Of a stretch of 64,000 nt of DNA, positions 3,213 through 8,514 are shown piece after piece (position 1 is the first letter of the stretch; each line of letters begins with the position of its first letter). Origin of the DNA: Actinopolyspora erythraea (GTDB lineage Bacteria; Actinomycetota; Actinomycetes; Mycobacteriales; Pseudonocardiaceae); assembly GCF_002263515.1 (NCBI RefSeq), contig NZ_CP022752.1, forward strand, positions 1,240,001 through 1,304,000. Direction: 5' to 3'. Under the pieces are notes generated by a model. That model had not been told where the DNA came from, made no database searches, and saw only the letters and a program-made list of their open reading frames with translations. A program made the position numbers and the translations under genes.

Positions 3213-3563
3213 ATGTCACGCCGAGCGATGTCCGAGCAGACGTTCCTGGTGTTGACCGTGCTGGCGGCCGAGTCCTTGCACGGCTACGGGATCGTGCGGG
3301 CGGTGGGCGAACTCTCCCAGCAACGGGTGGTGTTACGAGTGGGGACGCTGTACGGGGTGCTCGACCGGTTGTGCGCCGACGGACTCGTGGAACTCGACAG
3401 CGAGCAGGTCCACAACGGTCGGTTGCGGCGCTACTACCGCATCACGGACGAAGGACTGACCACACTGGCCGGCGAGACCGCTCGCCGCTCCGAGGCGGTG
3501 CGGGCGGCCACCGACCGGTTGCGGGTCCGCGGACTGCTGCCCGGAACGGGTGGTACGGCATGA
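3213..3563 (+). CDS. PadR family transcriptional regulator
   Basis: A short winged-helix protein of 116 residues. It has the PadR N-terminal pattern SEQTFLVLTVLAAESLHGYG, then VGTLYGVLDRLCADGLVE (recognition helix and wing) and the YRITDEGL wing hairpin. Length and motif order match the one-domain PadR subfamily. The ATG at 3213 is taken; a second ATG five codons on is possible. Its stop overlaps the next start (ATGA), a common arrangement in which a PadR protein controls the membrane protein beside it. An AT-rich dyad sits immediately upstream. Confidence 0.9.
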   Translation: MSRRAMSEQTFLVLTVLAAESLHGYGIVRAVGELSQQRVVLRVGTLYGVLDRLCADGLVELDSEQVHNGRLRRYYRITDEGLTTLAGETARRSEAVRAATDRLRVRGLLPGTGGTA

Positions 3564-4609
3564 CCAGGCTGGAACAGCGCTACCGACGCCTGCTGCGGCT
3601 GCTACCCGCCTGGTACCGCGCCGACCGCGAGGAGGAGATGGTGGCCGTCTTCCTGCTCGACGACTCCGAGAGGCAGGGCGCGCTCGGCGACGACGAGCAG
3701 GACGACGAGGACGATGACCTGCGTGGTGAGTACGGCTGGCCCGACTGGCGGGAGGTCGTCGCCGTGGCGGGGCTCGCGGTCCGTACCCGCTTCGGTGGGA
3801 TCGGCGCCCCGAGCGCGGCTCGTGCGTGGGGTGACACCGTTCGCGCCGTCGCGCTGCTCGGGCTGCTCGTGCGCGCTGTACTGGCGCTCGTCTCGCTGGC
3901 CAGTCTGGCATACGTCCAGCTTCGGGGTGGCACGGCGTTCGCCGGCCCGAGCGTGCTGGTGCGCCCGAGCGGCGGCTACATCGCCCTGAGCCTGCTGCCG
4001 AACCTGGTGTGGGTGCCCGCGTACCTGCTGCTCGTGCTGGGGAAACGTCGTTCCGGGCGGTTCTGCGCGGTCGTGGCCTCGCTGCCTTCGCTCACCTCGG
4101 TGATCTCCACGGCCACCGAGGGCACGACCATGTTCGCCACCGCTGTACTGATCGAGCTCGGAGTCTGGCTGCCCGTCACCTGCGTGCTCCTCGGGTTCCA
4201 TCGTGACGCCCCGGCCCCGTCGCGGAGGCCGTGGTCGCTCGCCCTGCCGGTCGCGGTTCTCGGCTGTCTCCTGTTCGTAGTGGTGGGCCGATTCGCTCCG
4301 GCGATCATGGTTGCCGGTCCGCTCATCTGGGGGATACTCGGTGCCGCCGTGACGACTCTCGTCGCGCGAGTGCGTCATCCGAGACCGATCACGAACTCCT
4401 GGTCGGTCGCGCTGGCCGTGATCGGTGCGCTGTCCCTGCTGGCGCACGCGGCGCCACTCGTGGCATTCGGCCCGCCGGACGGTGTTCCCGCGCTCTTCCT
4501 GGTGCTGCCGCAGGCGGCACTGCTCGTCCTGGTAGCCGTTCTGGTGTTCACCGTTGTCCGAGTACCTGGTGAGGGCGGTTCGGCCGCACTCGGGGCGGCG
4601 GAGCACTGA
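3560..4609 (+). CDS. PadR-associated multi-spanning membrane protein
   Basis: A protein of 349 residues. The first 45 residues (RLLRLLPAWYRADREEEMV) form the soluble helical prefix often found in membrane proteins encoded next to PadR regulators in actinobacteria. An acidic linker rich in Asp and Glu follows, and then about eight hydrophobic segments from residue 95 to 340. No transport or enzymatic motif is visible. It is translationally coupled to the PadR gene by a 4-base overlap and is probably its regulatory target. Function unknown. Confidence 0.8.
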   Translation: MTRLEQRYRRLLRLLPAWYRADREEEMVAVFLLDDSERQGALGDDEQDDEDDDLRGEYGWPDWREVVAVAGLAVRTRFGGIGAPSAARAWGDTVRAVALLGLLVRAVLALVSLASLAYVQLRGGTAFAGPSVLVRPSGGYIALSLLPNLVWVPAYLLLVLGKRRSGRFCAVVASLPSLTSVISTATEGTTMFATAVLIELGVWLPVTCVLLGFHRDAPAPSRRPWSLALPVAVLGCLLFVVVGRFAPAIMVAGPLIWGILGAAVTTLVARVRHPRPITNSWSVALAVIGALSLLAHAAPLVAFGPPDGVPALFLVLPQAALLVLVAVLVFTVVRVPGEGGSAALGAAEH

Positions 4610-4745
4610 TCGCGGCCACGTAGTTGACAGGGCGGTCGAGCAACGGGTGCCGACTCGGGTGGCGTCGAGCTCGGCGCGGCCCGTCAGCTCGGCGACGGTA
4701 ACGACGTCGACGCCGTCGCGCGGCAGCCGGATGACGAAGGCAGAC
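4610..4745 (-). pseudogene. Eroded tyrosine recombinase (integrase) C-terminal fragment
   Basis: On the minus strand this reads FVIRLPRDGVDVVTVAEL, then TGRAELDATRVGTR. It resembles the end of tyrosine integrases, where the usual pattern is RDGVD-V-VAELLGHA-LDTTRRYT. The position of the catalytic His of the GH motif is Arg here and the catalytic Tyr position has been lost, so the fragment would be inactive. No upstream catalytic Arg region is recognisable and no start codon fits. It is read as the remnant of an integrase that once moved the accessory stretch up to tRNA-Arg. The match is short, hence moderate confidence. Confidence 0.45.
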
Positions 4746-5191
4746 CGCGAAGTGCGGATGGACCCGCGTCTTTCCCCCGTCCGAACCGGCACAGCGGACC
4801 GATCCGGTCGCGGTGGCGGTCTCGCGGACGACGGTGTTGATGCCGCGCACGGACAACCACCCGCCCCGGCGGTTCCCCGCGCCGACGCCGGGGTCAGTCC
4901 AGACGTGCGTTCAGCCAGGCGCGCCGGTTCGGTACGCACCCGTGCCGGACAAGGCCAGGAAGACCCCCGCCAGGCAGCGTTTTCCGAGCGGGGCGGGGTG
5001 GGGCAGCGATTGCGACGACGTCCCGCGACCGGCCCGCGTCGTCCCCTCCGAGCTGCCCGGCGGCGGGATCGAGGGAATTGTCGAGGCGGCCTCCGGGCGC
5101 AACATCGTCACTCCGCGCGGAAGGAGGCCGTGGCAGCCGCCCGGATGGGCCCTCCGGCGGCTGTCACGACCTTCGCGGGGGCAGTCGGGGG
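4746..5191. other. Stretch without a recognisable gene
   Basis: About 450 bases between the integrase fragment and the small membrane gene. Reading frames here are Arg- and Pro-rich shadows with no family motif and no convincing ribosome binding site. It is probably decayed island DNA. Confidence 0.5.
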
Positions 5192-5395
5192 CTATCCGCC
5201 GTCCGAACTCGACGTCGATGGACGCCAGTACCGCGCTCCCACCGCGAAGGTCACGGTGAGGCACGCGAGCACCCCGAGGGTCCAGAAGCCGTCCTGCTCG
5301 CCCGAGCGGAACAGCGAAGGGATGTACAACATCAGCACGGCGGCCGAGACAGCCATCCCGGCCAGGCTGACCACGAACAGCCAAGTCTCCTTCAT
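5192..5395 (-). CDS. Small two-helix membrane protein beside the halocin-like gene
   Basis: A protein of 67 residues with two hydrophobic helices (about residues 5-25 and 38-58) joined by a short charged loop (SLFRSGEQDG) and ending in a Ser-rich tail. The ATG at 5395 is preferred: GGTGAGG lies just upstream, although an in-frame GTG at 5404 is possible. It begins about 10 bases after the stop of the secreted Cys-rich protein on the same strand, so the two are probably one transcript. A small membrane protein in that position could be an immunity or export partner. That is inference; no family is recognised. Confidence 0.7.
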   Translation of the reverse strand: MKETWLFVVSLAGMAVSAAVLMLYIPSLFRSGEQDGFWTLGVLACLTVTFAVGARYWRPSTSSSDGG

Positions 5396-5405
5396 CACCC
5401 TCACC

Positions 5406-6170
5406 TTAACCGAAGCAGCTGGCGACTGCGGTCACCGACGCGCTGCCGACGGTTGCGTAGGCGCCGATGCACGCGACGCACACCGCCGTACCCACTCCGG
5501 GAGTCGAGCACGCACCCGTGCATGCACTCACGATGAGATACCCGGTGGCGCCGCTCACGCCGAGTACCGCCGCGACGCAGGCGGCCGTGCTCCCGACCCC
5601 CATCGCGGCCATGGGGTCAGAACTGTCGACGCCGTTGTTGGCCTGCAGCTCGGCGTCCGTCATGTACGGCAGATCCGTGTCTTTGCTGTTCACGAGAACG
5701 CCGTCCGTGAAACTCGTAATGTTGAAGTTCCCGGCTTCGTTCTCACTGACGAGTGTCTCGCTGTACTGGACGATGTCTCCGCTCTCGTCGAAGAGAACCG
5801 TGAGGTTACTGACCAGGCTGTATTCTCCGCCGACAGGAATCGTCACCGAAGTGGACTCGCTGTTCTCGGCGTCCACTGCGTAAACCTTGGCTTGGCCCCG
5901 GGAAAGCGCGCTCCGCGGAGCCTGGACGGAGATCTCGCCGTTTTTCACGGCCTCGAAGGCCGCGCCCGTCGACTCACGCGCGTCATGGCCGTCGACCAGG
6001 GTCATCTCGGTCGTCGAACCCGTCGAGGAACCCTGGTTCGAGCAGGCCCCACTCGTATCGTGAGCAGTCGTGGAGGCAGGCCGCTGGGGCTCCTGAGGCG
6101 CCGCCACGGTGGGTGTCGGCGTCATCCCTCCCACCGCGAGTGCCAGGGCCAGAGGAGCGACTGCCATCAC
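5406..6170 (-). CDS. Secreted protein with C-terminal Cys-rich, halocin C8-like domain
   Basis: About 254 residues from the GTG at 6170. A hydrophobic signal segment (VAPLALALAVGG) is followed by a likely cleavage site near TVAA. A polar, Ser/Thr- and acid-rich middle (about 30-190) follows. The last 60 residues are hydrophobic and Gly/Ala-rich with six cysteines (in AACVA, SACTGAC, AVCVAC and ASCFG). This layout, an export leader plus a long propeptide ahead of a compact Cys-rich hydrophobic domain, is that of halocin C8-type bacteriocin precursors and their actinobacterial homologues. Antimicrobial activity is inference. GC content is visibly lower than in neighbouring genes. A strong AGGGAG lies 6-7 bases before an in-frame ATC at 6200, which would add the basic residues KFRK to the signal peptide. 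Confidence 0.75.
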   Translation of the reverse strand: MMAVAPLALALAVGGMTPTPTVAAPQEPQRPASTTAHDTSGACSNQGSSTGSTTEMTLVDGHDARESTGAAFEAVKNGEISVQAPRSALSRGQAKVYAVDAENSESTSVTIPVGGEYSLVSNLTVLFDESGDIVQYSETLVSENEAGNFNITSFTDGVLVNSKDTDLPYMTDAELQANNGVDSSDPMAAMGVGSTAACVAAVLGVSGATGYLIVSACTGACSTPGVGTAVCVACIGAYATVGSASVTAVASCFG

Positions 6171-6436
6171 CGGCTTGCGAAACTTCGTCGTCGTTAAGAT
6201 GTGGCTCTCCCTGTTCTCGAACTGTGTATCATTACCTGTGGAAACTCTGGACGCCGTCGAGTGTCGGATAATGCGGGACGTCCGGAATCTTCGGTGCCAC
6301 GGGGCGGCGTTGCGTCACGAAGCACGCGTATTACGCACGGACACGGTCTTAGCGTGGCCTTGAGCATCGTGGCGCGAGCGCGAACCCCGTGAAAAATCGT
6401 CGCACGATGACCAGCACGATGCTCTACTGCAAACAG

Positions 6437-6471
6437 ATGAAAAGCCACAACACCAGAAAGTGGCTTTTCAT
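6437..6471. terminator. 12-bp perfect inverted repeat, terminator-like
   Basis: ATGAAAAGCCAC (6437-6448) pairs exactly with GTGGCTTTTCAT (6460-6471) across an 11-base loop. The A/T-rich stem ends would give a short U run in either direction. It lies about 230 bases upstream of the halocin-like gene. It could insulate that gene from the decayed DNA to the right or act as an operator. Confidence 0.5.
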
Positions 6472-7250
6472 GACGAATGTGGATTAGCTGTAACAGATCC
6501 ACTCAACGCTGCCCCACGAGGTGTGGTCGGAACGCGTCCGGAGCCAGTCACGAGGTGATCCGAAGGACAGTGGTCGCATGGTCATGCGGCGAGAGCGACA
6601 CATCCTCGGTGCTCATTGGTTCGGAGCTGTTCTGCTTCAGCCGTGAGGACTGGGTTCAGGACGAGGCGACCAGTCGGCCGAGCGCGTTCCCAACTCCCGG
6701 CGGTCCGCTCGCGACACAGCCGCACGCACGGTGACACCGTCCCTTCTTCGGAGTTGCCGCCTTTTCCCGGCTTGTTCACGGGGCCGACTTGTTCACGGTG
6801 GCATGGTGACGGGTGTGGTGAGGTGCTGTCCGTCGGTGTCGTACACGAGGAGTTCGCAGCCGAGGATGTCGGGGCCGCATCGAGCGTCGAGTCCACTTCG
6901 GCCGGTTCGTTCCCCGGTGCTGTCAGCGGCACGAGCCTGTTACCTGGCTGTGCACCCGCACCCGGACCAGGGAAGGGGGCTTCTCGCCAGTGTGTCGGGC
7001 AGGTCGCGCCGCTTGGAAACACGGTCCGGGGCTGTCGATCCGCGGGTGTCCGGTGTAGGGCTGTCCGCTGTCTCGCCGGTAAGCGTCCCTGCCAGGTCAG
7101 GCGGTGCTTACGGGAGACGTGCGAATCACAGGACGGCAGCGCTGGTCTCGCTCGTGCGTGTCGCTGTCGTCTTTTGTTGACCAGGAGAGCCCGTGGTGCT
7201 CGCCGGGTTGGATGGCCGGTCGCGGCAGGTCATCGCCATAGCGCCAGCGA
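6472..7250. other. Low-coding decayed stretch
   Basis: No intact gene is recognised. One minus-strand piece, about 6800-6895, reads LDARCGPDILGCELLVYDTD and ends in TMPP-stop. It looks protein-like but lacks a start and an upstream continuation. The other frames are Arg/Ser/Pro-rich shadows. Taken with the integrase fragment and the pseudogene to the right, this looks like an eroded mobile island. Confidence 0.5.
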
Positions 7251-7650
7251 GTGAGTCGCGGGCCGTGCGGGCCGCGCGGGCCCTCGCACCAAGTGGCAGG
7301 GGCCAGTGCCGACCACGACGTGCGGCAGGCGTCGCGGCTGTTCGGCGTTGCCTACGAGAAGGTGGGCGAAGTCGCGCAGGCGGCGATGGAGGCCGCAGAG
7401 CACGTTCGCTCGTTCTCCGCAGTGCTGTAGGGGGTATATTCCCACACGCGGCAGACCGTGGGAAATATCCTCGCCGGAATGCTCGGGCGAGTGCCGCCCG
7501 AGCAGCTGCACCAGGCGCGGGCCTGGATCCAGGAGTACGCCCTGCCCACCCTGGCCGAAGTCGGCCGGGAGTACCTCGGTCGAGCCGGCCGAAGTCGTGG
7601 TGCTGTTCGCGCGGGTCTGCGAGTTTATCGACGAGATGCTCGTGAGTAGC
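7251..7650 (+). pseudogene. Helical protein pseudogene with internal amber stop and frameshift
   Basis: One frame reads SADHDVRQASRLFGVAYEKV, then continues with AQAAMEAAEHVRSFSAVL to a TAG at 7428-7430. It resumes in the same frame as QTVGNILAGMLGRVPPEQLH and ALPTLAEVGREYL. Near 7585 the sensible sequence moves to another frame (VEPAEVVVLFARVCEFIDEM). Both sides of the TAG are amphipathic helical sequence with no other breaks, so a single ancestral gene seems likely. The product is not recognised. It sits in the accessory stretch next to tRNA-Arg. Confidence 0.5.
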
Positions 7651-7917
7651 CGCCGTGCGCGCGGGGATGGACCGTGGAAGACGGGGCCGAGGTGCTCGGC
7701 CATTTCATGATCAAGTTGATCTAGCGGTACATCCCGCCGGGGACACCCACTGGAACGCCGTCCGTGGGGCACTGAGTGGGGCAGGACTCGAAGTTGCGGG
7801 GCACTACTCTCGCGCCACGGTGGTGCCCCACATCTGCCACGCACGGGCCTCAGTGAAGATCAGATGACGGTGATCGTTTTGGCATCCCGTCGCAGGTCAA
7901 CGGGATAACAATGGAGG

Positions 7918-7991
7918 CGCCCCCGGCAGGATTCGAACCTGCGACCTAGAGATTAGAAGTCTCTTGCTCTATCCGTCTGAGCTACGAGGGC
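7918..7991 (-). tRNA. tRNA-Arg (anticodon TCT)
   Basis: The 74-nt minus-strand cloverleaf starts GCCCTCGTAGCTCAG. The anticodon stem AGAGA/TCTCT encloses loop CTTCTAA, giving anticodon TCT, and the T arm contains GGTTCGAATCC. The acceptor stem GCCCTCG/CGGGGGC pairs with one G-U. The 3' CCA is not fully encoded. The decayed accessory DNA lies on the 3' side of this gene, the usual side for integrase-mediated insertion. Confidence 0.95.
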
Positions 7992-8514
7992 TCGAACGAC
8001 ACCGGGCACGTGCTCACGGCGCGTGCCGTGTCGTGTCAAGCAGACTAACGGTTCTCCCGGCTTTACGGAGAACCCACACGGAGGCTGTTGCCGAGACGGT
8101 ATCGAATGGCAAGCCGATCATAATCCCGAGTGTTTGGTCCCAGTTGCCTGAATCTCTTTCGTTTCCCTGTCGCGGACCGTGTCACGGCGAGCTGAGCAGC
8201 GACGACGGAACCACTGGTGGCATCGTAGTCGCGCTTCGAGTTCACCTCTATGCGTTGCGCTTCCACGCTATCGAGTCGTTATGTCACGCCCGCTGTCGCC
8301 CCCTGTTTTCGCTCTTTCGGGTGGCTTGTGGATGCGTTGTCGGTTCCCTTCCCGGGAAGCGTTTCAGCGAATTGTCCACATGGCTACGAGTTGTGCACAG
8401 AAAGTGATAGGTATGTCGCTTGCCGTGTTCGATCCCGGGCACTCTGAGTGCGGCGCCGTCCGGCGCCGCGAAACCGAGACGACCACGCCAGAAGTGGTGG
8501 AAGGGCAGGAGCTC
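7992..8514. other. Intergenic region upstream of ssb
   Basis: About 520 bases with locally lower GC (around 8090-8300). No coding frame with family character is seen and no clear hairpin. It presumably holds the promoters of tRNA-Arg (minus) and ssb (plus). Confidence 0.5.

Follow-up and report, generated by a model that had tools for sequence, protein, structure and literature searches.

A putative two-gene bacteriocin–immunity unit with a six-cysteine C-terminal domain in Actinomycetota and Bacillota

We describe a pair of minus-strand genes that probably forms a stand-alone bacteriocin–immunity unit, in which an exported precursor would give rise to a cysteine-stapled, helical bacteriocin-like peptide and a two-helix membrane protein encoded directly downstream would be the putative immunity protein. 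The pair lies in a 64,000-nucleotide stretch (the whole of the DNA analysed, referred to hereafter as the window) of the 5.24 Mb genome of Actinopolyspora erythraea, a salt-loving actinobacterium. Judged by its homologues, the precursor belongs to a real family present in both Actinomycetota and Bacillota, for which the Pfam and NCBIfam copies searched hold no model of its own. The original prediction of a bacteriocin-like unit is supported by the conservation of the cysteines and by the adjacent small membrane gene; membership of the halocin C8 family was not supported by profile searches.

Architecture and start of the precursor

The precursor gene (5406..6200, minus strand, stop codon at 5408-5406) encodes 264 residues when read from an ATC codon at 6200, and homologues were found for it. 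The open reading frame tool had begun the same frame at a GTG at 6170 (254 residues), whereas the conserved frame starts 30 bases further upstream, at ATC 6200. This frame-opening codon is ATC in the window and in L011 and ATT in L012 and L013 (four Actinopolyspora genomes), and its position aligns with the ATG of the homologues P0008 and P0010. Four bases ahead of the window ATC lies a Shine–Dalgarno-like GGAGAG (6205..6210, minus strand; a ribosome-binding role would fit the sequence), GGAGA stands at the matching site ahead of the start in L011–L014, and the start codon of L014 is a TTG behind AAAGGAGA. Read from the ATC/ATT, the n-region is LTTTKFRKP in three of the Actinopolyspora sequences (one change in L013); the positive charges that a signal peptide needs are present from this codon and absent from GTG 6170. 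The Actinopolyspora precursor probably starts at AUC/AUU, a reading that is consistent across all four genomes. Such a start could keep expression of the putative toxin gene below that of its partner.

The translation opens with a predicted signal peptide (6099..6200, minus strand), comprising a Lys/Arg n-region, a hydrophobic core and TVAA before PQ (cleavage site placed by eye), and a hydrophobic N-terminal segment is likewise present in the full-length homologues of our alignments. There follow a middle α/β domain, a putative propeptide or intramolecular chaperone (5664..6011, minus strand, residues 63–178), a variable linker that is gapped in alignments and is the likely cleavage region (5604..5663, minus strand, residues 179–198), and a hydrophobic C-terminal domain of 60–65 residues, the putative mature peptide (5409..5603, minus strand), with four predicted helices and six invariant cysteines (residues 207, 226, 230, 240, 243 and 261, numbered from the codon after ATC). 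A seventh cysteine, Cys52, falls within the propeptide, and some aligned homologues lack it. All the elements first noticed in the minus-strand translation are there: a segment resembling a signal, a polar stretch in the middle and, at the C-terminus, a hydrophobic part with six cysteines. AlphaFold2, run on an alignment of 53 sequences, predicts the middle domain with confidence (residues 63–178, block pLDDT 88–98), shows falling confidence in the linker (block pLDDT 83, then a drop to 56) and places four helices at the C-terminus; these helices appear again when the C-terminal domain is folded alone (mean pLDDT 79). A Foldseek search with the C-terminal domain alone returned no match, and a search by sequence found no solved relative of the precursor.

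Conservation and constraint within the family

At E ≤ 10, a protein search with the precursor found 53 proteins (the window's own among them), the weakest at 2e-14. Named sources include Actinopolyspora, Streptomonospora, Brevibacterium, Arthrobacter, Lysinibacillus and a Peptoniphilaceae MAG, and the closest named match at the locus is from Actinopolyspora xinjiangensis (91% protein identity). The six C-terminal cysteines are invariant in all 53 aligned sequences (the window and 52 others), as had been anticipated for homologues, and in all 25 of a second alignment that overlaps the first. Scanning of genomes yielded 34 precursor loci, distributed over Actinomycetota and Bacillota, and the spacing C-x18-C-x3-C-x(6-11)-C-x2-C-x17-C is kept in 32 of these, a count that tests only four of the cysteines (the scan pattern itself fixed the other two) and overstates independence, several loci being near-identical (L029–L031). 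The two exceptions, L041 and L044, both look decayed.

Comparison of the four intact Actinopolyspora precursors gives the lowest pN/pS in the C-terminal domain (0.17) and the highest in the linker (0.62, residues 181–198), with intermediate values for the middle domain (0.31) and the signal/propeptide region (0.53); selection thus acts most strongly on the C-terminus and most weakly on the linker. A middle domain that is predicted this well and constrained to this degree goes beyond what a mere spacer would need, and halocin C8 offers a precedent for giving it a larger role: a single 283-residue precursor yields HalI, the immunity part, together with a 76-residue peptide, as described in PMC11509114. 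By that logic the middle domain would be the immunity factor and the membrane protein would do other work, such as helping export or cleavage. We consider this distinctly improbable, in that the partner persists without the precursor, which would not be expected of a maturation helper, and is the sole neighbour common to most loci.

A conserved membrane partner directly downstream

The partner gene (5192..5395, minus strand, ATG at 5395) encodes a two-helix membrane protein of 67 residues, confirming the small membrane protein first placed about 10 bases on from the precursor on the same strand. Ten bases separate the precursor stop from the partner ATG, and the Shine–Dalgarno-like AAGGTGAG of the partner (5400..5407, minus strand, its role again suggested by sequence and position) overlaps the precursor stop codon.

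To count as adjacent, a downstream open frame had to start within 64 nt, be 55–85 residues long and contain one or more hydrophobic segments. Such a frame is present at 32 of the 34 precursor loci and at all 27 whose precursor frame reaches at least 225 residues, as against 7 of 674 other frames of at least 200 codons in these loci (the control frames being open frames on both strands rather than proven genes), which fits the original idea of a small membrane gene beside the precursor. The two failures are L040, from Enterococcus lactis, and L044, where both genes are fragments. In L040 (10609-11025) the precursor frame is interrupted, the two-helix partner is absent, and a thioredoxin-like ORF with a CxxC motif (by eye) comes after the six-cysteine domain.

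An HMM built from 15 actinobacterial partners places the 15 Bacillota partners at ranks 1–15 of 2234 ORFs (E 1.6e-9 to 0.005). In the reverse direction, the top nine of 3625 ORFs found by the Bacillota HMM are partners and the tenth is the tandem second partner of L028; 13 of the 15 actinobacterial partners are reached at E ≤ 1, those of L018, L024, L034 and L043 only at E 0.11–0.71, among a few unrelated frames, and the small hydrophobic ORFs that stand in place at L015 and L042 go unrecognised by this model. On these profile comparisons, the partner is homologous across both phyla. In L028 (10837-11289, Arthrobacter gandavensis), this second copy sits downstream of the first.

Clustering of the ORFs of at least 80 residues within 6 kb of the 34 loci gave no cluster common to more than four of them, ABC ATPases recurring in four; because no neighbour cluster recurs widely, the loci show no sign of a dedicated transporter or modification enzyme. 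The precursor–partner pair is also present on a mobilizable Arthrobacter plasmid. On the Arthrobacter agilis plasmid pAAG24-152 (from 3670 onward), the partner follows the precursor by 60 nt; the incomplete gene table of this plasmid omits the partner and lists the precursor as a “hypothetical protein.” No partner was seen at plasmid hit H2.

GC content over the unit (0.63–0.65 at 5251-6250) is lower than on the low-coordinate side (0.69–0.74 at 3501-5250), whereas the high-coordinate side is as low as the unit itself (0.60–0.69 at 6001-8500), such that the original description of a GC dip relative to both flanks is right for one of them. The low-GC stretch at 6250-8500 reaches genes that by eye resemble those for SSB and for an ABC-F ATPase, and this stretch beside the unit is possibly foreign DNA.

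Partners without a whole precursor

Within the genus Actinopolyspora (ten genomes, the window's own included), the precursor is found in four genomes (G000, G001, G006 and G008) and the partner in all ten; G006 carries a second, orphan partner copy plus a partial third. Directly upstream of six of the seven orphan partners of the genus, the final codons of a precursor, Phe-Gly-stop, are still in place, with the cysteine kept in three. The orphan of G002 has Cys-Phe-Gly upstream with the stop lost, and that of G005 is preceded by a decayed precursor C-terminal piece (last Cys changed to Arg), the only precursor remnant of the genus that stands out statistically. Retention of Phe-Gly-stop says little by itself, because these codons overlap the ribosome site of the partner. 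At one copy, G014 (not one of the ten genomes) has a precursor piece that lacks the end of the C-terminal domain and runs into the tail of a partner; at another site, a precursor C-terminal piece is followed by an intact partner. The unit occurs twice in this genome, each copy broken on its own, and only one of the two partners is whole.

The eight partner copies that lack a whole precursor occupy four separate genomic places. Those of G003, G007, G009, G004 and G014 share flanks and represent one syntenic place, so five of the eight are not independent; those of G002, G005 and the second copy of G006 each stand alone. None of the genes flanking the unit in the window was found near the eight copies, save for a response-regulator match near that of G002. 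None of the eight has a stop within the 65 codons compared. Their mean pN/pS is 0.56 (28 pairs) versus 0.41 for paired copies (6 pairs), and dN/dS is at least 1 in 2 of the 28 orphan pairs; neutral simulation of the partner gives pN/pS of 0.90–1.04, with a stop arising in 54–72% of runs and 3–6% of single runs falling to 0.56 or below. These values are suggestive of selection on the orphan partners, somewhat looser than on paired copies. The same figures (0.56 versus 0.41, the two pairs with dN/dS of at least 1 and the simulation runs) also tell against the bacteriocin–immunity reading, in that orphan partners could have another job.

Beyond the genus, an even draw of 396 genomes from the phylum (of which the first pass scored at most six and at most 15 candidates per genome) contains the precursor in at least two genomes and the partner in at least five. 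One genome of this draw, G532, has the precursor–partner pair, and three actinobacterial genomes have the partner only (G341, G396 with two copies, and G406), with no precursor trace in the 7–9 kb stretches around it. Seven of the 34 precursor loci have a precursor frame with a break or truncation (L016, L033, L038, L040, L041, L043 and L044; some of these breaks may be draft errors), and in five of the seven the partner is whole. This 5-to-0 asymmetry between broken genes carries little weight, since at about four times the length the precursor offers a larger target.

Retention of the partner after loss of the precursor is the pattern to expect from a bacteriocin that has its own immunity protein. 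The original prediction had offered either the propeptide or the small membrane protein as the source of protection; the orphan copies favour the membrane protein as putative protector and make the propeptide the weaker candidate. Hydrophobic, cysteine-rich secreted domains are not all antimicrobial, and the C-terminal domain might instead be a secreted or surface protein with a structural or signalling role, for which the partner would be a membrane anchor or chaperone. We regard such a non-toxic function as improbable: the patchy spread (four of the ten genus genomes, at least 2 of 396 in the phylum draw), the carriage on a plasmid and the orphan partners are all more in keeping with conflict than with a housekeeping role.

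Proposed mode of action

In the bacteriocin–immunity reading, secretion, cleavage, disulfide pairing, membrane killing and immunity would be linked in the following manner. The signal peptide would export the precursor, whose middle α/β domain may hold the C-terminal part harmless or aid its folding. Outside the cell, disulfides would staple the hydrophobic C-terminus, and cleavage of the linker by a protease would set free a compact peptide of four helices, which may act on the membranes of related bacteria, while the adjacent two-helix membrane protein would protect the producer.

A bolder formulation, which we put forward tentatively and hold at somewhat below an even chance, is that these genes represent a new bacteriocin class of Actinomycetota and Bacillota. 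Here, a cystatin/PepSY-like intramolecular chaperone would carry a membrane toxin of four helices stapled by six cysteines, the unit would lack genes for transport or modification, the 67-residue protein would be a transferable immunity factor that is kept after loss of the toxin, and the AUC/AUU start would hold toxin output below that of immunity in Actinopolyspora.

If the bacteriocin–immunity reading is correct, this is a small, self-contained two-gene unit for killing and protection that spans two phyla. Its peptide would seem to need just export, disulfides and one cut, making the idea easy to test in laboratory strains, and the natural orphan partners would provide ready candidate resistant strains for comparison.

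Comparison with known systems

The original prediction likened the precursor to halocin C8, a bacteriocin of haloarchaea, and named, beforehand, a profile search as one test of this; no halocin-type model reaches its cut-off. The halocin C8 domain model TIGR04449 (24-bit cut-off) finds nothing at E ≤ 10 in six frames of the window's own genome, and neither TIGR04450 (putative immunity/bacteriocin fusion) nor NF040679 (halocin C8 precursor-like) matches the window protein at that threshold; the curated cut-offs of these two models (27 and 200 bits, respectively) are reached by none of the genomes tested (0 of 21 and 0 of 14). Among the best 25 of the 30 families listed for the 53 family members, TIGR04450 has a weak match in one member (E 0.054) and NF040679 likewise in one (E 0.0051); in a set of 25 members, sub-threshold NF040679 matches occur in four (best E 0.0051), and a weak match to these models was found in one of 18 relatives. 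We therefore do not assign the family to halocin C8, TIGR04450 or NF040679, the sequences being unlike despite a matching layout. The idea that such units are little described outside archaea needs amending in one respect, in that NCBI already holds Gram-positive halocin-C8-like models; none covers the window family.

Kinship with TIGR04450 could nevertheless lie deeper than sequence detection reaches, the window family being distant true members of a halocin C8/TIGR04450 superfamily; this concerns ancestry only and is compatible with a bacteriocin–immunity unit. Three of 80 genomes in the family to which G201 belongs supplied three true TIGR04450 proteins. These three share with the window family a signal peptide (by eye), a folded middle domain and six C-terminal cysteines with a CxxxC, in an equal layout, and the TIGR04450 and NF040679 families are similarly Gram-positive and of about 240–260 residues. 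Each of the three TIGR04450 genes (L086, L087 and L088) also adjoins an ORF of 90–94 residues with two or three hydrophobic segments, longer than the 67-residue partner and only a candidate relative of it; the sub-threshold NF040679 matches point the same way. Set against this, the cysteine spacing differs, the curated cut-offs are unreached, and hhalign comparison of the window family with the three TIGR04450 proteins, a shallow three-sequence side, gives probabilities of 0.7% and 2.5%. We judge common ancestry unlikely on balance. The adjoining ORFs hint that a separate membrane protector may be general in halocin-C8-like units.

The SDP toxin of Bacillus subtilis (SdpC/SdpI) combines a Sec-exported precursor, a hydrophobic C-terminal toxin with a disulfide and a membrane immunity protein. 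The unit described here resembles it in the predicted export of the precursor, the hydrophobic C-terminus and the membrane protein alongside, and differs in its six cysteines and much smaller partner; no SdpA/SdpB-like conserved neighbour emerged among the ORF clusters of at least 80 residues at the 34 loci (a survey by cluster). Bacteriocins of the EntV family are likewise exported as precursors that are cut to a small, helical, disulfide-bearing peptide, a route similar to that proposed here. The EntV family model NF058576 has a weak match in one of the 53 members (E 0.0056, among the best 25 of the 30 families listed). UniRef labels the Enterococcus silesiacus homologue “Bacteriocin” (an annotation label only).

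The secreted halocin C8 precursor and the window precursor, predicted to be secreted, are of similar size, and each has an N-terminal part followed by a small peptide at the C-terminus. The halocin C8 peptide has ten cysteines, compared with six in the window family, and halocin C8 draws its immunity part from the precursor itself, whereas a separate membrane gene stands beside the window precursor. The unit may work like halocin C8 or an SDP-type toxin, and we file it as a member of neither family; if the bacteriocin–immunity reading holds, it would extend the halocin C8 design to one in which the protector is a separate and independently kept gene.
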